Assembly: GCF_004210375.1 (NCBI RefSeq)
Contig: NC_134837.1
Location: forward strand, 161,923,310 to 161,987,309
From: Tachypleus tridentatus
Lineage: Eukaryota > Arthropoda > Merostomata > Xiphosura > Limulidae
DNA length: 64,000 nt
Direction: 5' to 3'
Part shown: piece by piece, positions 5,004 through 21,154 of the stretch
How positions within the stretch are numbered: position 1 is the first letter of the stretch
Layout: each line of letters starts with the position of its first letter
The notes under the pieces: generated by a model
The model's input: the letters and a program-made list of their open reading frames with translations, nothing else
What the model was told of the DNA's origin: nothing
Database searches by the model: none
Program-made: the position numbers and the translations under genes

Positions 5004-6064
5004 CAAGAAAAAAACCAAATATCCAAATTTTGAATTTAGTGATTTATGTGATCAAAACTAAAACGGTTTAAGCATATATTATATTGTAAAGATTATATTT
5101 ATTACAAGTTCTCAAAAAATACAATTTCAATGCATAAATTTTCTCATTTTAAACACTTAGAATATCTAAAACTAACCCATAACAAACATCTTTTCTGGCA
5201 CAACCTCGGTAAATTTTTCATTTTATTTTGTTATGAGTCTGACAGTAATTAGAGCAATAAATAGATGTATTTAGTAATCTACGAGAGGGTAACTTTACCA
5301 GCCTAGTCGTTGTGTATAAGTTTGTAGAGTTAACAAAGTAAATGAATATCTAGTCTGAATTTATGTATTTTGACATCTTTACCCTTGTTCTCTGTGAAGT
5401 CGGTTCTGTCTTATGTTTTTCTGTTTAGGTTCTTTGGATAAAGCGACTACAGAAGTATGTAGCTGGCAGCTAGCTCTCAAAATATAAACACTGAACATTT
5501 TATGTAATTGAGGCTCGCTAAGAAAAAAAAGTGAAATATATAACGTAAGAAATATTTATGAAGACATAAAAGTACGTAAAAAAAAGGTTTCTATTATTAC
5601 CTTAGGTACTTTAAAGATGTTTAGAGATGTGGAAGTAAAAATAGTAACATTGATACATTTATTCGATCTATTTGTGGGTATGTTTTGCGTCTGCCTCTTT
5701 GGTTACGAAAGGTATTGTGACGAACTGGTTGATCTATATATAGGTAGATAAACGCCGGTGAACTAACAAAGATCGTTTTAAAATAAATAATCAAATAGGC
5801 AAGCAATCCAAGTTTAAACTAAAGTACGAACATCTACAACGTATATATATTATTACACTATGTAGCTAAACATATAATACAGTTTTGTTCATTCTTATAA
5901 ACTGAATTAATAACGTCCCTAATAAAAGTGCTTTAACAATAGCAAGTCACGCAATTTGCGAATCGTTTATCAATCTCAGATACAGCCTACGTATTTTGAG
6001 TGTTGCGTGTGCTAAACATTGAGTTTACAAATCTGGATTCACTGTTTCTTGAGTTTTTTAAAAC
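5004..6064. other. AT-rich spacer with part of a dispersed repeat
   Basis: No gene. About 5450-5560 (ATGTAGCTGGCAGCTAG and the following ATAAACACTG) resembles about 9645-9750 (ATGTAACTGGCAGCTAAG, GTAAACACTG), so both are probably copies of one unnamed dispersed repeat. A 61-codon minus-strand ORF at 5621-5806 is unsupported. Confidence 0.4.
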
Positions 6065-7431
6065 TACAGTGTTTTCCAAAAGTATTAGCCCCTATCAACA
6101 ATGTCACATTTTGATGAAATAAATAAAATATAAACAACTTGTTTAATGAACTTGTTTATATTTAAAACTCTAAAGATCAAACTTAATACTGCTATATGTG
6201 TGAAGGAGGTTTAATGCCAGCAAAACCTGCAGAGGATATACATAAATTGAAATTTGCTGATTGAATTAGTATACAACCACTAAGTCAGTACCTTGGGCAG
6301 CAGTTACAACTGTGGATAGTTTTGAACAGGTCTCTGCTAGTTTTACATAATGCAATGCTGTAGTTTTTATTCGTTCTTCTTGGTAAAATTACTTCAATTC
6401 TGACAAGTTTGTTGGAAATCGTTGATGGACTGCAATCTTCAAGTCTCTCCATAAATTTTCTATTGGATTCAAGCAAGGACTTTGATTGGACTACTTCAAA
6501 ACATTCACTTTCTTCTTTTAAAACCATTCCAGTGTGGCTTTGGCCTTATGATTCGAATTATTATCCCGCCGAAATGTGAATTTTTAATCCAGGTTTAGTT
6601 TCTTAGCTGTCAGCAGGATTTTTTTCTGCAGGATTCGTTTCATTTATCTTCCCCTCAGTCTTAAAAACCTTCCCAGTCCCTGCTGATGAGAAAGATCCCC
6701 ATAACATGATGTTACCATCATTATGTTTGACAGTTGCGATGGTGTTAATTGGGTGATGGACTTGTACTATATTTAGCGCTCTAAATGTAGACCAAAACGC
6801 TCAGTTTTAGTTTCACCACAGAATATTCTGTCACACGTCTGCATTATCATTTACATGTTTTGTAAAGATGATTCTTTTTCGGTAATACTTTCTTTCTTGC
6901 CCCTCACCTCATACAAGTCGGCTTTTTGTAGGGACAAAGGTATTATTGACATAACTAACTAGATAACTCCCATGTCAGATGGAACTTTCTAAATCTTTCA
7001 AAGTTACTGTTGGCTTTACAGTGGCATCTCTAACCATCTTCCTGCTTGTTCAGCTGCTTGGTTTGGAAGGGCGGTCTAAGTAAGTATTGCTTGGTTATTA
7101 TACCACTTCTTAATGATGGAATTCTTGTACTCAAAGGGATAATCAGACTGTAAAATTTTCTTGTAACCTTCTCCTGATCTGTACTTCTCTACCACCTTAT
7201 CTCGGACTTATTTGAAAGCTCCTTGATCTTCATAGTTGGTTTGTCATACCACTCTATGAATTGTAGTTGTGGCTTGAACAGATGCATTTACTCTGAAGTT
7301 AAGTTAAACCACTTTGATTACACACATACACAGACCATTACATTATTGTTTTAACCTTTCAAACTGCCTTTCTCATCTGCAATGAATTAGGGTTGACGCA
7401 GCAAAGGAGTTTAAAAATTATTCAGTTAAGG
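6065..7431 (-). mobile_element. Degraded Tc1/mariner transposon
   Basis: The left end has a TA dinucleotide at 6065-6066 followed by CAGTGTTTTCCAAAAGTATT, a typical Tc1-type terminal inverted repeat. The minus strand then carries a decayed transposase reading frame ending near 6285. No matching inverted repeat is visible on the right. The recognisable part stops at about 7430, where a family A SINE begins, so the right end was either displaced or lost. The protein motifs belong to the Tc1 branch common in animals. It is a dead copy. Confidence 0.85.
6285..7233 (-). pseudogene. Tc1-like DDE transposase, inactivated
   Basis: This is the remnant of a cut-and-paste transposase that would bind the inverted repeats and move the element between TA sites. 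Reading the minus strand in shifting frames gives a possible start at 7233 (MKIKELSNKS), then [12 protein letters not shown] and [17 protein letters not shown] near 6690-6740. Then come FRRDNNSNHKAKATLEWF around the second catalytic Asp (codon 6563-6565) and [11 protein letters not shown] around the catalytic Glu (6449-6469). The first catalytic Asp appears lost: the site usually read as SDET is CGET here (6809-6820). Several in-frame stops and frame changes interrupt the frame, including two stops just before the Glu motif. The apparent 80-codon ORF at 6285-6527 mixes the true frame at its end with an out-of-frame start. Confidence 0.85.
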
Positions 7432-7932: not shown

Positions 7933-8478
7933 TGGGGGAAATGCTTTTGCAAGTCACAATATGTTTTGATCGAGATTTAAATTACTAAATGTTTAATAAT
8001 TAAATAATTTTGCTTTTACTCTTGCAAGCCGCAACTTCGCCATTAAGTTAGGATTATATTAATTTAATTACAAACTATTTTAACCCTTTAACTTGCTATC
8101 CACTAATCTCTTCGTACGCTAACCTGTTTTTTATTCTTGTGCAGTTTTTATTTTATTCAGACTGGTAACTTAGTCCGGAAGTGTTGTTTGTGTGTACAGT
8201 CTTAAGATATAAATTAACAATTTGTTTATTAATATTCTCCAAGCGAAACATGGAAACCAAACACGTAGGCTACGGTAACGATGCTTTACAAATCTGTTAT
8301 TTCTCTTTTATTATTATACTCTATATTTCTGACTTAAGCAAGTTTTGTACTTTGTAATAACATAACACAACATCCCTAACAAACTAATTATTAGAGTAAT
8401 TAAGAGATCACAATTTAGACATACATAGAAAAAGCTATTAACGCGAAGATTCCCCTTATACCTGAATTATTAATTTTG
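7933..8478. other. AT-rich spacer
   Basis: Nothing recognised beyond very AT-rich unique-looking sequence. Confidence 0.4.
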
Positions 8479-8578
8479 TTTGTTTATAATAATGCTGATT
8501 ATCTTTGTTTATAATATTGTTGGTTGTTTTTGTTTATAATATTATTGGTTATCTTTGTTTATAATATTGTTGGTTATC
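8479..8578. repeat. 25-bp minisatellite, four copies
   Basis: Four tandem copies of a unit like TTTGTTTATAATATTGTTGG plus TTATC, the first two slightly diverged. The unit length is exactly 25 bp. A 62-codon minus-strand ORF overlaps the right part and is not supported as a gene. Confidence 0.9.
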
Positions 8579-10042
8579 TTTGCAAATGTATATTTTTTAT
8601 ATTTCATGACTTTAGTCATTATACTCTGATAAGTATATAAAATCAAATTAATCGAGTTAATGCAAAATAACGCTATCTTTAGTACATTAGTAGTAATGTT
8701 CTTTGTAGATCTTGATTGAACTCCATACAATACGGTGTTTCCTTTAAATCCTGTATTTTTTAAAGTTGTGAAACATGTTCTAGAGCAGCGAAATCTTACT
8801 ATTGAATCAGTTATTTAGTAATTTATGTATGATAACCAACAGTAATATCTTTAATCATACACAAATGAGTTTGCTTGTTAATAGTTTCTAAAGGTGGTTT
8901 ATTTCAACGTTGACAGGAATATTGGAAGGACGAAACACGCCGACAGGTACTCATATTTAAACGGCTTTTTCTCATATATTTTCATTCAAAATGGATAAAT
9001 TCAACGCACATCACAAGTCGACATTTTAACATAAACACATGCACATTCGTTTATTTACTAACTTACTATACACACCTTACTACTATAGTATCTTCAAGTT
9101 TTCAACCCTCAGGTTTAACTAAAGCTAGATAAATGGGGGATTATCTGAGAGAACGCAGCTCAGACACTTATGAACAAAATAACACAAGATAATATATTTA
9201 TAGACATTAGAACAACACATAAATCGTTCTTATCTTAAAACTTAGCGGTTGGGATATTTGTGTAACTCAACAGATTAAAACAATGTAGCGAATATCAGAT
9301 ATTGTATGAAGGCATTAGGTTTGGTTGGCCATTTTACTTTTCTTACGTCCAGCATATGCAACGTGTCAGTTATGATTTTATTTAAGATTAATATTTAACC
9401 TTTTCGTTACGAAACATTAAGGATTATAAACATTAGTCGTTAGTCATTTTTAAGTAAGCTTCTAAATCTGTCTAATTGATTGAATGTATCAATCCATATC
9501 TTGAAACCTTCTTTAGAAAAATGGTTGAAGTTTTTTTTTTTTATATGGCAAGATAAGACTTGCTCAAATCATAAAATATACGTTTGGTATCTTTGGCTGG
9601 GGATCTTCGATCATGTAATTTACCTGTGGACAACAAAAAGTTTGAGAGGATGTAACTGGCAGCTAAGTGTTAAAAGGTAAACACTGGAGATTTAGTGCAA
9701 TTTAAATATAGTTATAGAAGAACTGATAAATTAAGAAGGTAAAACGTGTAAGAGGAGTAAAAAAGATTTCTGAAGGTGTAAATCATATCAATAAAATATT
9801 TGTATGATTATTGTTGTCAAACGTTAATATATAATCGCAACAAGTTTGTCATAAGTACTTGAAACACTGCTATTTAGATATATTGTCTGCTTAATACTCT
9901 AAACATCAGTTCTTACCCTCTTCACCTGTATACCACCAAGTCAAGGACGAGACTACAACAATAACAATACAATACTAAAGGCCACAATATTACAATGTAA
10001 ATAAATAACTAATGGTTTTTTATGATCACTAAGGTCTAATAA
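8579..10042. other. AT-rich spacer
   Basis: No gene recognised. About 9645-9750 matches the dispersed repeat seen at about 5450-5560. The stretch ends with TAA at 10040-10042, directly before the CACTATG terminus of the next element. Confidence 0.4.
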
Positions 10043-11742
10043 CACTATGCAACACAAATTTTGTTCCTGGATAGTATGTGTTATTTCTTAATTGCTTATT
10101 TTGTAAAAGTACAGAAAATAGCCAAACTTTACTTTTGTGACCTAGATAATGAAATTTAGAAATTAACCTATTTTCTATGTAAAAACGAGCAAATTTGCAT
10201 ATTTTCATTTACATGAGGCCTGAATAAAACAACATATGAATCAAGATTTACATGTATTTATACTAAAGTTATACAAAAATGAACAAAAATGTTTAGAAGT
10301 GAGTAGTTTTTCGAGATTTACGACTGTAATGTAAATCACTTTCACGTATCAGTCCCCAAATATAGTTTCCCATCATGTTTTTGTTATACGCTCCTTGGTA
10401 GCGGCGTTCAAAGTCGAGTACATCTTGGTGGAAGCGCTCGCCTTGCTCCTCTGAGTATGCTCTCATGTTCTCCTTGAATTTTTCAAGATAATCGTCAAAG
10501 ATATGGACTTTCAGGTACATCCTGCAGCCCATTTTGCCATAGTTCTTCATCATAGCCTCAACCAGTCCCACATAATTTTCGGTCTTGTTATTGCCCAAAA
10601 GTCCCCAACCACTGCGGCAAAGCTCCCCCAAGCTTTTTTTCCTTCCTACTGAGCTTCTTGAGGAATTCTGTGCACTTCCGAAGAATACACTAGTTTTGGC
10701 CTTTGCCTCAGACAGCTTAGGGAAGAAGTCTCGAAGGTACTTGAGGCCTGCAGAATCCTTATCAAGAGCTGTGACAAATTGTTTCATAAGATCAAATTTT
10801 ATGTGCAATGGTGAAAACAACACTTTCTGGAGGTTCACTAGTGACTCACACTTGACATTGTGCCTTCCCACAGGGAACTCGGTCTGCTGTGGCCATAGTT
10901 TCCTGTTCTAGTGCGCTGCGGTGTCCCTGCTGTTCCAAAGGTAAAGATAACAGGGAAACTTGGTAAAGTTTCCTTGGAGACCCATCAGAAATGTCACCAT
11001 CTTGAAGTCTCCGATAACCTCCCAGCCATATTCATCATACTTCAAGGCTTCTAGCAAGGTATTGACCTGTTGTATTCCTCTTTAGGGTGCACCAAATGAG
11101 CTAGGGGAAAAGACGGATACTTATTCCCGTTATAGAGCAGCACAACTTTGGGGCTTCTGGATGAGCTATCACTGAAGAAGCGCCACTCGTTCTGGTTACA
11201 GGCAATTCCATTGCCTCCACAAACTGGATACATTGTGGTAGAAGCAGAGCCCATCTTGACGAGTGAAGAAGTTTGAAATATGTCGGTGACGCTTCCTCTG
11301 ACTTGCGACTTGCACACTTTCATCTAGCAAATCCCACTCCTTGAGTCTAGATGTTAAAAGCTCGGCATTTGACTTTGTTAGACCAAGATCTCTGATCAAG
11401 TCATTAAGGTCTTTTTGGTTGTGGTAATATGGGTTTCTCTCACCGGCTGCACCTCTGAAACTGTAACTGGATCTTGAACTTCTACATTCTCTTCTGATTT
11501 GCTGCTCTCATCTGAGGATGACTGCTTTCTTTCTGGCGGAGTGAATACAGGGAGCTCATGGCAGTGTGGCACTGTGGCGATTGAAGGTCCGGACACATAA
11601 TAGCAGATGATTCTTGTCAGCCCGAAGTTTGGAAGGGTCCACCATGCAGAAGTAGCAATTATTGCTTGAGTGGTCACTGGGTTCACGTCAAATTCTTGGA
11701 ATACCGAACTTCATGGCTCTCTTCCCCTCTGTATCATCCTGC
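10043..11742 (-). mobile_element. CACTA-like DNA transposon, 3' part
   Basis: The element's 3' end is at low coordinates. CACTATGCAACACAAATTTT starts at 10043 after TAA, and is the same terminus found at both ends of the 473-bp copy at 19507-19979. Next come about 250 bp of 3' untranslated sequence and a decayed transposase-like gene (10293-11738). Ends of the form CACTA...TAGTG with a 2-3 bp target duplication are the mark of the CACTA/EnSpm (CMC) superfamily. Assignment to that group is my inference from ends and protein layout. The 5' terminus was not found: beyond the splice acceptor lies a tandem array (11869-12612) and then unrelated sequence. Confidence 0.7.
10293..11738 (-). pseudogene. 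Transposase-like protein of the CACTA-like element
   Basis: I recognise this as a protein repeatedly annotated as 'uncharacterized' in arthropods and other animals. It begins after a good splice acceptor (T-rich tract then TTTTGCAG, exon start at 11738). In order it shows KFGIPRI; a TGA where Trp is expected (11688-11690); a zinc-knuckle-like NNCYFCMVDPSK; HCHELPV; NQKDLNDLIRDLGLTK; EWRFFSDSSSRS; GDFKMVTFLMGLQG followed by CYLYLWNSRD (a second Cys apparently changed to Tyr); LHIKFDLMKQFV; ENYVGLVEA; and EEQGERFHQDVLDFERRYQG, ending SRKTTHF. The three acidic sites (DSS, GDFK, EEQGERFH) could be a DDE triad; this is inference. Damage: an in-frame TAG at 10908-10910 and frame changes near 11600, 11425, 11230, 11070, 10690 and 10610. 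It cannot encode a working protein. Confidence 0.8.
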
Positions 11743-11752
11743 AAAAGAGCAA
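11729..11752 (-). other. 3' splice acceptor of the transposase-like gene
   Basis: On the minus strand a T-rich tract (TTTTATTTTGCTCTTTTGCAG) is followed directly by the open frame DDTEGKRAMKFG. The gene therefore had at least one upstream intron, whose remains should lie at higher coordinates, where the tandem array now sits. Confidence 0.6.
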
Positions 11753-11868
11753 AATAAAATTGTTATTATGAAGAATAAATTTATTTCATCCACAACTAAT
11801 ATGTAAGGAGTTCATGCAAAATATTTTATATGGGATATTTTTCTATACTATTGGCTGTATATTGGCTA

Positions 11869-12612
11869 TATACTGTGATACTATACTATACTATACTATA
11901 TACTGTGATACTATACTATACTATATACTGTGATACTATACTATACTATACTATATACTGTGATACTATACTATACTATATACTGTGATACTATACCATA
12001 TACTGTGATACTATACTATACTATATACTGTGATACTATATTATACTATATACTGTGATACTATACTATATACTGTGATACTATACTATACTATATACTA
12101 TGATACTATTACTATACTATATACTGTGATACTATACTATACTATATACTATGATACTATTACTATACTATATACTGTGATACTATACTATACTATATAC
12201 TGTGATACTATACTATACTATATACTGTGATACTATACTATACTATATACTGTGATACTATACTATATACTGTGATACTATACTATATACTGTGATACTA
12301 TACTATATACTGTGATACTATACTATACTATATACTGTGATACTATACTATACTATATACTGTGATACTATACTATATACTGTGATACTATACTATACTA
12401 TATACTGTGATACTATACTATATACTGTGATACTATACCATATACTGTGATACTACACCATATACTGTGATACTATACTATATACTGTGATACTATACTA
12501 TATACTGTGATACTATACTATACTATATACTGTGATACTATACTATATACTGTGATACTATACTATACTATATACTGTGATACTATACTATACTATATAC
12601 TGTGATACTATA
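11869..12612. repeat. 743-bp tandem array of ACTAT and ATACTGTGAT units
   Basis: About 32 units, each made of ATACTGTGAT followed by two to four ACTAT pentamers, so unit lengths are mostly 20, 25 or 30 bp. Variants include ATACTATGAT (near 12098 and 12150) and ACCATATACTG (near 11994, 12437 and 12457). TTGGCTGT-like sequence flanks both sides (about 11850 and 12615). A 66-codon ORF at 12030-12230 is only a by-product of the repeat. The array starts roughly 130 bp beyond the acceptor of the transposase gene, so it may lie in the former intron or replace the element's 5' part. Confidence 0.95.
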
Positions 12613-12785
12613 CTCTTGGCTGTGATACCACGTTTTATACAGTTGCTGCTGCCTTTTTTGATATTTTATAAAAATGTACGAGCAGGTATAGACTTAGTAA
12701 ACGTCAAGGAATTTCGTTCCTGATAAGCTATTTACTTCAAGATGTCTCCCGCTTTATTCAAAGCAATTCAAAGCAAACTCGATGA

Positions 12786-13062
12786 GTTTGTTTGTTTTGG
12801 AATTTCGCACAAAGCTACTCGAGGGCTATCTGTGCTAGCCGTCTCTAATTTAGCAGTGTAAGACTAGAGGGAACGCAGCTAGTCATTACCACCCACCGCC
12901 AACTTTTGGGCTACTCTTTTACCAACGAATAGTGGGATTGACCGTCACATTATAACGCCCCCACGGCTGGGAGGATGTGCATGTTTGGAGCGACGGGGAT
13001 GCGAATCCGCGACCCTCAGCTTACGAGTCGCACGCCTTAACACGCTTGGCCATGCCGGGCCT
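12786..13062 (-). repeat. SINE family A, full length
   Basis: Minus-oriented and complete from the (TTTG) tail to the head terminus CCATGCCGGGCC. The head is of the AAGCGTGTTAAGGCGTGCGA type. The apparent 61-codon plus-strand ORF starting in its head is not a gene. Confidence 0.93.
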
Positions 13063-13430
13063 GAAAATAAGCAGTTTATATATCAGTTTTAGGTCTACCT
13101 TATGTATATACGTATTGGAAACAAATATATTTGAAATCGCGTTTCAATTCAATGAAAATTAATCAAGGCCGTAAATAAAATTATCAAAATAAATCAGTAT
13201 CACTGCCTTGATTTAATTTTCCGTCAAATTAAATACAAAATTTAATATATATTTTTAGAATTTTGTTCATTTATATGTAATTGTTTGATCCTTCTATATA
13301 TCAGTTTTTAGTCTGCCTTTGAGCTCTTCATTCTTAAAAACTTATATCTAAACATTCACAGACAAGTACGTGTTGGCATCGTAAACTAATGTCCAAATGT
13401 CTTCGAGCCTTGTTTCGATCCTAATCAGAT
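13063..13430. other. Spacer with a 28-bp direct repeat and a small inverted repeat
   Basis: TATATATCAGTTTTAGGTCT near 13077 recurs in diverged form near 13295 (TATATATCAGTTTTTAGTCT). Between them, AATTAATCAAGGC (about 13157) and GCCTTGATTTAATT (about 13206) form a short inverted repeat. No gene. Confidence 0.5.
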
Positions 13431-13497
13431 TGTTTGTTTGTTGAATTTTTGTGCCAAATTACTCGAGGACTATCTGTGCCAGCCGTCCCTAATTTTG
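13431..13497 (-). repeat. SINE family A, tail fragment
   Basis: Only the tail and the first part of the body are present (GTTTGTTTG, then ACTCGAGGACTATCTGTGCC and GTCCCTAATTT). It breaks off where a family C copy begins, so either family C inserted into it or the two were joined by deletion. Confidence 0.75.
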
Positions 13498-13622
13498 TTT
13501 GTTCGTACTTCAGCACAAAACTGTACAACGGGCTGGCAGTATTCGGCTGACCACCAGTATCGATACCCGGTTACTAGCATTGTAAGTTGTAGACATACTG
13601 CTGTGCTACTGGGGTCGTCCGA
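13497..13622 (-). repeat. SINE family C
   Basis: Read on the minus strand it runs CCCCAGTAGCACAGCAGTAT, GGTATCGATACTGGTGG (B-box region), CAGCCGAATACTGCCAGCCC and TTTTGTGCTGAAGTACGAAC. It directly abuts the family A fragment. The two opposing ORFs (13438-13713 plus, 13470-13679 minus) are artefacts of these repeats. Confidence 0.75.
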
Positions 13623-14251
13623 AATTGAGAAATGTGTGTATGTGGTAAAATATAATGAAAATTTCTTTAGCTTTAACACATTTACTGATTCTGGAAGTGT
13701 ACAAAGCTTCTAAATATTTCTTATTAACACTATTAACGAAAGCAAAGAAACGCTATTTTTCTGAAAGAAATTCATTATATTTATAGTTTTTTTTTCATGA
13801 ATCCAGTATCAAATACTGTTATAAACCTGAAATATTATAAGTTAAATTCTTATTTAATTCAAATAGCAGAAATTATCAAACTGAGAGTATAACGCGGTAA
13901 ATGTTGACTTATTGTAACTATCAAAATGTTTACCTCACTACAACACATTTTATTATATTATTGAAGTTTGTTATTAAGGAATCTAATTTTGTTTTTAAAA
14001 GCTGTCATTGCGAATAACTTGATGCAATGTCTACTAGTTCAAGGGTCGCACTGTATTGAGCTAACTTGTTCTTAAGTTATCACAAGGAAAGGTGGTTAGA
14101 AAATTGTTCAGAACAGGTCAAGCACTGCTATAACAAAAGATATGTAAATGACTATTTTTCGTGTTTAAAAATAAACTCGATGTGTAGAAATTTTACCTAA
14201 ATAGCCAGCTTAGTAATATTAAATGTAAAATTGAAGAAAAAACTGCATCCA
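13623..14251. other. AT-rich spacer
   Basis: No gene. Its end, 14240-14251 (AAACTGCATCCA), is the left target-site duplication of the SINE that follows. Confidence 0.4.
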
Positions 14252-14524
14252 GTTTGTTTTGAATTTTGCGCAAAGCTACTCGATGGCTATCTGTGCTAGC
14301 CGTCCCTAATTTAGCAGTGTAACACTAGAGGGAAGGCAGCTAGTCATCACCACCCACCGACAAACTCTTGGGCTACTCTTTTACCAACGAATAGTGGATT
14401 GACCGTAACATTATAACGCCCCCACGGCTGAAAGGGTGAGCATGTTTTGGTGCGATCGGGATTCAAACCCGCGACCCTCGAATTACTGGTCGAACGCTTT
14501 AAAACGCTTGGCAATGCCGGGCTC
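14252..14524 (-). repeat. SINE family A with target-site duplication
   Basis: Full-length minus-oriented copy. It is bounded by AAACTGCATCCA (14240-14251) and AAACTACATCCA (14525-14536), a 12-bp duplication with one mismatch. The head carries a GGTTTGAATCC B box and the ACGCTTGGC end. Confidence 0.95.
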
Positions 14525-14879
14525 AAACTACATCCAACTTACCATTTGTATACACTAAAATATTTAATTCAGGTAAACGTTTTGAAAGGAAGTGTTAGTG
14601 TTTCCATAAGCCAACATTTACTAGCTTACATTTTTATTTTGGTAGTTTTCTACCGTTTGATTTTAAAAATAATCTAATCTGTAAATTAATACATTGCGTT
14701 TACAAAGTAGTTTTTTCCCTTGATTTCACTAAAAAGTGATAAATATAAATAATTCCTTACCGAAAATGGTTTTCTTTTAAATTTGCTCAACAGTATTTAT
14801 TGAAAAATATTTAGAAGCTTTGTACGTTTCTAAAATTAGTAACTATTAGTAACTGTGCTACAAATTAGAAGCGATAGAC

Positions 14880-15075
14880 TGGAGTAAAGACAATTAATTA
14901 TTACCATCTACTTCAAACGCGTAAGTTACATTGTATCAACGAACAGATTATTGTGGGATTGACCTAAGCATATCTTGCTTCTGCAGCCGAAACGATGAGC
15001 AAGCATGTTCGCTGATAGAATTCGGAGCTACGACCCGAATATTGCGACTGGAGCGACGTATTTACCAAGCTTTGT
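14880..15075 (-). repeat. SINE family A, old degenerate copy
   Basis: Recognisable pieces in the expected order are ATTACCATCTAC, CAACGAACAGATTATTGTGG, GATTGACC, GCAGCCGAAACGATGAGCAAG and a decayed head with ACCCGAATATTGCGA. Much more diverged than the neighbouring copy. Confidence 0.5.
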
Positions 15076-19034: not shown

Positions 19035-19301
19035 TTGTTTGTTTGTTTCGAATTTCGCGCAAAACTACTCGAGGGCTATCTGCGCTAGCCGTCCCTAATT
19101 TAGCAGTATAAGACTAGAAGGAAGACAGCTAGTCATCACCACCCATCACCACCTCTTGGGCTACCAACGAATAGTGGGATTGACCGTTACATTATAACGG
19201 CCCCCGGCTGAAAAGGCGAGTATGTTTGGTGCGACAGGGATGCGAACTCGCGCCCCTCAGATTGCGAGTTGCACGCCTTAACCCACCTGTCCATGCCAGG
19301 T
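19035..19301 (-). repeat. SINE family A with imperfect duplication
   Basis: Minus-oriented and nearly full length, with a small deletion in the body (CTTGGGCTACCAACGAATAG lacks the CTCTTTTA segment). Flanks TTGTTCTGCGAGA (about 19022-19034) and TCGTTCTGCTCGA (about 19303-19315) look like a mutated target-site duplication. The 63-codon ORF starting in its head is spurious. Confidence 0.9.
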
Positions 19302-19506
19302 CATCGTTCTGCTCGAACAAAACCACAAATACTATGAGTTTTACAACTCTTAATCAAATCTGTTACTGCAGTACTAACTCTTTGTTTCGTGTACCTACTG
19401 AAGACTGGCTGGCATGAGTATTCATCGATTTTACTTTATGAAATAAATTTTGTAGAAAAGCCATTGGTGATAGTGTGACTATATAACAATGTTACTACGT
19501 ATATAA

Positions 19507-19979: not shown

Positions 19980-19982
19980 TGA

Positions 19983-20592
19983 TTTAGTGTTACTTAGTAT
20001 TACGACTATCATCAAAATGAAACCCTGGACTGAGAATAAAACTTTAGCACGTGCTTAATCTTTGTACTTCCTGATGATCAGCGTTTCCTTTTTCCTTTGA
20101 TTTTCACATCAGCCAGAATTTAAACTGTTTTTATATCTTTGAATTCACTCGTATTTCTTTTATTGATCGCAGTTTGACTCAATATTTGTACAATAAATGT
20201 TGAAACATCTTCACAATTTTCGTTGTTTTTTGTTGGGGGAGCCTTCTTTATTTGTTGATTTTCTGCTATATTTTATTATTATTTGTTCAAGAATACCTTT
20301 CGAATCCATTGACTACCCAAATACTTAAAACTGTAGTTTTATTTATACTGTATTCGGAATATAACAAGATAATGTTATTTCTGTTAAAGCCTGAGGCACC
20401 GTTTTAGATTATGCTCACCTAGAATAAGTGAAAATATACAGTAGTTTTTTAGGATTTATTTGGAACTTAATAATAGTTTTGTTGTTATTTGAAGAAGGCA
20501 GAGATTTAAGCATTATCATCTGATCATACACTGAAAGTAGAAAAAATATATATTTGGGAACCTGGGAAACATTTATTCAGTATACAGAAATG
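19983..20592. other. AT-rich spacer
   Basis: No gene. 20582-20592 (ATACAGAAATG) is the left target-site duplication of the following SINE. Confidence 0.4.
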
Positions 20593-20866
20593 TTTGTTTG
20601 TTTGTTTGTTTTTTAATTTCGCACAAAGCTACTCGAGAGCTCTCTGTGCTAGCCGTCCCTAATTTAGCAGCTACGGAAGGCAGCTAGTCATCACCACCCA
20701 CCGCCAACTCTTAAGCTACTCTTTTATCAACGAATAATGGGGTTGACCGTCACATTATAATGCCCCCACGGCTGAAAGGGCGAGCATGTTTGGCGCGACG
20801 GAGATGCGAACCCCCGACCCTCAGATTACGAGTCGTACGCATTAACATGCTTGGCCATGCCGGGCC
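20593..20866 (-). repeat. SINE family A with perfect 11-bp duplication
   Basis: Complete minus-oriented copy between ATACAGAAATG (20582-20592) and ATACAGAAATG (20867-20877). The (TTTG)n tail, body and AAGCATGTTAATGCGTACGA-type head are all present. The perfect duplication marks a fairly recent insertion. Confidence 0.97.
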
Positions 20867-21154
20867 ATACAGAAATGAGTAATAGTTTGAGAAACTATAA
20901 CGAATTATTTATTAGTTATTTTACTTCTCTAAATATAAAATACCAAAATACAGTACATGTAAATGAAAACGAATACGTTTTAAATATTATAGTCTCTTTA
21001 AGTTACGGAAATCTCTGTTCTTTACATTTAATATTCTCTATCCTAAAACACACGTAAATTACGTATTTGATCTTAAGTCAACTTCAATCATGAAGAAACA
21101 TGTATTTCAGCACTAACACTTTACAACAACGGGTAGATTGTCTTACATTATCAG

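Follow-up and report, generated by a model that had tools for sequence, protein, structure and literature searches.

On the minus strand of a 64,000-nucleotide stretch of the Tachypleus tridentatus genome (contig NC_134837.1; the whole stretch is referred to here as the window) lies the remnant of a protein that we take to be annotated as ‘uncharacterized’ in many animals. The remnant sits beside a terminus reading CACTATG, which raises the question of what the protein once did, and whether it belonged to the element that the terminus delimits. The answer reached here is that it represents a transposase, now broken, from an old Chapaev3-type element. Both this sequence and a shortened relative nearby are considered, with a probability of about 0.91, to be dead copies of a single family of cut-and-paste DNA transposons belonging to Chapaev3, a branch of the CMC group.

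The window element and its deletion derivative

The features on which the argument rests are given below in window coordinates.

10039..10042: flank ATAA, the A-TWA target signature described in PMC4079192
10043..11854, minus strand: decayed Chapaev3-like transposon, 3' part only (3' terminus, 3' UTR, exon 2 and the 3' part of the intron), with 38 genome matches
10043..10049, minus strand: element terminus, CACTATG on the plus strand and CATAGTG at the 3' end of the element, flanked by TTA-T on the element strand
10293..11738, minus strand: transposase pseudogene exon 2, 1446 bp, with frameshifts and premature stops
10428..10451, minus strand: third acidic site, EEQGERFH
10488..10511, minus strand: H(4)H site, HIFDDY in the window copy, the second His changed to Tyr
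10794..10814, minus strand: LH motif, SPLHIKF
10935..10952, minus strand: C(2)C site, C-Y-L-Y in the window copy, the second Cys lost
10998..11018, minus strand: second acidic site, VIGDFKM, containing GDFK
11159..11176, minus strand: first acidic site, FSDSSS, in the shifted frame
11739..11746: clean splice acceptor TTTTGCAG, directly 5' of exon 2
11866..12614: tandem array of 20/25/45 bp, beginning where the intron homology of the element ends
19503..19506: left flank of the derivative, A-TAA
19507..19979, plus strand: internally deleted non-autonomous derivative with both termini, 473 bp, about 30 C-terminal codons kept
19980..19983: right flank of the derivative, TGA-T, giving a target duplication TAA/TGA with one mismatch

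The original prediction placed the protein remnant just inside the terminus, and this is borne out: exon 2 starts at 11738 and reaches its stop at 10293, 250 bp inside the CACTATG at 10043. The exon can be read mostly in one frame, apart from two mutually cancelling frameshifts around 11200-11070, and the main frame is interrupted by 10 premature stops, several of them within the shifted stretch. The 5' half of the element, comprising exon 1 and the 5' terminus, is missing from this copy. Homology of its intron to three full copies ends at 11852-11854, and the loss of the 5' half coincides with the tandem array at 11866-12614, the motif of which was present in none of the four other full copies checked. 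The 5' part was not found beyond the array within the window, where the corresponding portions of three full copies had matches to the derivative and terminal repeats alone.

The derivative does carry the same terminus at both ends, as had been claimed, and lies about 9.5 kb from the main element rather than 8 kb. Its inverted ends read CACTATGTAAC...GTTACATAGTG; the inverted repeat consists of an 81-bp arm and a second arm of 27 bp, the latter at the extreme ends. Alignment of the main copy with the derivative begins at the first base of CACTATG and contains 321 identical columns out of 362. It is this homology that constitutes the evidence, since CACTATG by itself is ordinary: the window contains it 10 times, the two strands taken together, and it was rejected as evidence on its own.

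A lone CACTATG at 5856 is preceded by ATTA, which conforms to the target signature, and stands without recognised element sequence alongside. Its comparison with the derivative produced just short, chance-like stretches among the matches listed, and no element is claimed there.

Other repeats populate the surroundings. A dispersed repeat of about 280 bp, which we assume to be SINE-like, is abundant, with 23 matches in the window including itself (among them 20590-20868, 12786-13061, 14252-14522 and 19035-19304). A decayed transposase remnant, presumably Tc1-like, occupies 6060-7430 on the minus strand. Elsewhere in the genome, an open frame that we take to be mariner-like lies upstream of one element copy (L015), at about 254-950 when that locus is oriented with the element.

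Copies in the genome, their ends and their target

A DNA search of the genome from which the window comes (2.17 Gb in 205 contigs), in which the best 40 of 7664 candidates were scored, returned 54 matches, corresponding to 40 places and 14 short pieces. The places are the window itself, a near-identical duplicate and at least 38 others, the latter at 82-87% identity. Thirty-eight of the 40 were fetched, leaving out the window and one partial copy on C9. A protein search gave 147 matches, with 146 of 20765 candidates scored, and 30 of these loci were fetched.

Full-length copies are about 2.4-2.6 kb long, with CAC...GTG ends and two exons of about 69 and 480 codons. Eighteen long copies, including the duplicated pair L013/L014, were examined for their gene layout. 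Exon 1 was found by DNA match in all 18, with its start replaced in L022; it begins MASRSCKHSPDAFCYVCGQ in several copies and is followed in 14 of the 18 by the donor GGTAAG, 204-211 bp after the exon start, giving a length of about 69 codons. Across the same 18 copies exon 2 measures 1361-1487 bp, with a median of 1449 bp (about 483 codons); the window copy alone would give 481 codons, and the length varies more among copies.

Some copies have multiplied with their surroundings. The pairs L013/L014 and L040/L041 have flanks in common at 99.3% identity, and their insertions were therefore copied by later duplications. A second copy of at least 7 kb around the window element (8006-15018) likewise lies on the same contig, some 378 kb distant and 98.5% identical; this duplicate (L046, G000:C13:161553500-161560500) reflects either segmental duplication of recent date or a haplotype left unpurged in the assembly.

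For counts of ends and target duplications, L046, L014 and L041 were left out of the 38 regions as repeats of the window copy or of an insertion already counted. Ten more were set aside because one or both of their ends failed to align as far as the terminal base or the base next to it (L009, L012, L022, L023, L028, L033, L037, L039, L044 and L045). Of the 25 copies kept, 12 are longer copies of 2372-2561 bp and 13 are copies of 1181-1702 bp that lack internal sequence. The element starts with CAC in 19 and ends with GTG in 22.

The original prediction turned on whether copies would have such ends and 3-bp duplications, a point that these 25 copies address. An exact 3-bp duplication flanks 12 of the 25, while exact duplications of 2, 4 or 5 bp flank none. 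The other 13 lack an exact 3-bp duplication; over all 25 copies 16 of 75 duplication positions are mismatched, as expected of old copies. The target itself reads A-TWA-T, with the preceding A in 23/25 copies and the following T in 24/25. The left side is ATWA in 17 copies and the right side TWAT in 19, against a window background in which ATWA precedes CAC in 46 of 1533 cases. Left and right duplications pair in 12 copies compared with 8.6 on average after shuffling (p 0.046), a weak excess; because the target is nearly fixed, pairing is a weak test. When the joined flanks of one copy (L026) were used to search for an empty site, its left flank proved to be a repeat that ends at the insertion point.

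The transposase and its decay

For the protein, 56 single-register pieces, drawn from 54 loci, were aligned. In the acidic columns the residue is D in 23/29, D in 41/52 and E in 38/45. Between the second D and the E lie a C(2)C pair (C in 45/52 and 40/52), an LH motif (L in 49/53, H in 47/53) and an H(4)H pair (H in 42/45 and 38/45). In a reference copy the second D lies 54 residues beyond the first and is followed 19 residues later by the start of the Cys pair, and the E comes about 194 residues after the second D, the catalytic E being one of several neighbouring candidates.

All three acidic sites named in the original prediction (DSS, GDFK and EEQGERFH) are present in the window copy; the accompanying Cys pair is incomplete there, its second Cys having been lost. 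This residue, like the second His that is also lost in the window copy, is the majority residue in the other copies. The reading of these sites as the catalytic residues of a CMC-type DDE transposase stands as far as the arrangement of D, D with the Cys pair, and E is concerned, and is unsupported in its assignment to the CACTA/EnSpm subgroup, the features being those described for Chapaev3.

Conservation is no higher in the motif columns than elsewhere, the majority residue accounting for 85% of the median alignment column. This is as expected, because the copies decay neutrally, and the columns display ancestral residues. Mismatch rates of 0.103, 0.087 and 0.109 at codon positions 1, 2 and 3 point to such neutral decay. 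The median piece differs by 7.6% from the majority sequence, at least one premature stop is present in 50 of 54 pieces, and every full-length copy read is broken. The longest stop-free stretch among those listed for 17 full-length copies is 330 aa, while 9 of the 147 protein-search matches are free of stops across the C-terminal part that matched, about 260 residues long.

The start of the protein is rich in Cys. Exon 1 contains C-x2-C twice, close to its start and close to its end; in several copies exon 2 begins with W-x-E-P followed by a further C-x2-C. This arrangement is compatible with the Chapa zinc-finger domain, which Kapitonov and Koonin (2015; PMC4411706) describe as common to Chapaev3 and RAG1. 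The transposase would have begun with a Cys-rich N-terminal region, for which exon 1 and the first part of exon 2 code; behind it lay a DDE catalytic core in which a long C(2)C/LH/H(4)H insertion separated the second D from the E. The protein presumably bound the inverted ends of roughly 100 bp, cut at CAC/GTG and inserted the element at A-TWA-T, where TWA would be duplicated. Catalysis by the acidic residues, an RNase H fold and a role of the Cys and His residues in holding zinc are all predicted on this layout.

Database and fold searches returned little. No Pfam DDE model matched the fragments and copies scanned; the Pfam matches obtained were all below cut-off, the best being GRAS (E 0.00063, 19.2 bits against a curated cut-off of 27). 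For Transposase_21 (PF02992) and PF06918 no match was listed at E <= 10, a limit to be read in the light of HMMER filters, which drop most matches above about 0.1. A single-sequence search of the PDB gave no match. A profile of the 56 pieces gave eight, led by interferon beta (E 0.0033) and including a primase, which were taken as chance. No homologues were found in viral contigs, prokaryote genomes, phages or plasmids. Two AF2 models had mean pLDDT values of 33.8 and 48.5, too low to be used for fold assignment; the latter, of an aligned copy, had a pTM of 0.25 and no clear RNase H sheet. ‘Uncharacterized’ is accordingly a description of the databases, since the protein has no meaningful match in Pfam or the PDB.

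Placement within the CMC group

Zhang et al. (2014; PMC4079192) report CAC/GTG ends for Chapaev and, in all Chapaev3 elements examined, a duplicated TWA with A before it and T after it. They also describe for Chapaev3 the C(2)C, LH and H(4)H motifs and MITEs formed by internal deletion. The family described here has each of these: CAC...GTG termini, a 3-bp TWA duplication between A and T, the three motifs together with D, D and E, and internal-deletion derivatives. In the same paper full-length Garfield and Merrow elements have exons encoding 78 and 478-484 aa (77 and 477 in one), and most other Chapaev3 transposases appear to be single-exon. The two exons found here, the second of about 480 codons, and an overall length of about 2.3-2.5 kb resemble Merrow and Garfield, and the two-exon layout fits these alone among the Chapaev3 families. 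The likeness is one of description only, and exon 1 differs, being somewhat shorter here, at about 69 codons compared with 78 aa. Membership of Chapaev3 is thus assigned by structure and motifs (ends, target and exon layout), which were set against published descriptions rather than aligned sequences.

According to Kojima (2025; PMC12730594), EnSpm, Mirage, Chapaev and Transib have the pairs C(2)C and H(3-4)H in the interval from the second D to the E, and a Cys/His insertion common to CMC, Transib and RAG1 is already in print; the Cys pair and His pair found here between the second D and the E agree with the group as a whole. Majorek et al. (2014; PMC3985635) link PF06918 to Chapaev and PF02992 to CACTA. 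Among arthropods, Chapaev3 is listed in a blowfly (PMC3630058). For the superfamily the published duplication size is 3 to 4 bp. The present family is like Chapaev (DUF1280/PF06918) in CMC mechanism and ends, and unlike it in its 3-bp duplication, the other Chapaev elements being taken to make 4 bp, and in the lack of a PF06918 match.

There is a small chance that the copies represent a CMC lineage next to Chapaev3 that has so far gone unnamed, of which the widespread ‘uncharacterized’ animal proteins would be live or domesticated members. It is smaller still if such a lineage is taken to be separate and absent so far from Repbase: the lack of any meaningful database match would suit it, as Repbase was compared by description only, but ends, target, motifs and exon layout all agree with Chapaev3.

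It is equally hard to sustain that this is a CACTA/EnSpm element proper, sharing the CMC mechanism and belonging to the EnSpm subgroup. The ends starting CACTATG, the 3-bp duplications and the Cys pair after the second D are all as in CACTA/EnSpm (Transposase_21, PF02992). EnSpm duplications, however, are not known to be restricted to TWA, whereas the target here is nearly fixed as A-TWA-T; the exon layout and sizes are close to Garfield and Merrow, and no Pfam DDE model was matched, Transposase_21 included. That the protein comes from a host gene family flanked by repeats by chance, as its supposed ‘uncharacterized’ annotation in many animals might suggest, has next to no probability in the face of copies that are dispersed, share sharp ends, are flanked by target duplications, are in part shortened and decay neutrally.

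With the window sequences read as Chapaev3 copies, the family is a further one of an already described kind, and the function of its transposase is in print for Chapaev3. The literature text searched held none of six peptide words of the protein, did not bring CMC-Chapaev together with Limulus, and did not tie a Chapaev transposase to an invertebrate ‘uncharacterized protein’. The suggestion that a new function had been found for an unassigned protein is weakened all the same, because Chapaev3 transposases were described in 2014 (PMC4079192) and in a Repbase report of 2008 (as cited in PMC4411706). As the copies scanned are without a Pfam match, automated annotation would fail to identify them as transposases, which suggests why such proteins stay ‘uncharacterized’; with a model built from copies like these, annotators could mask them.
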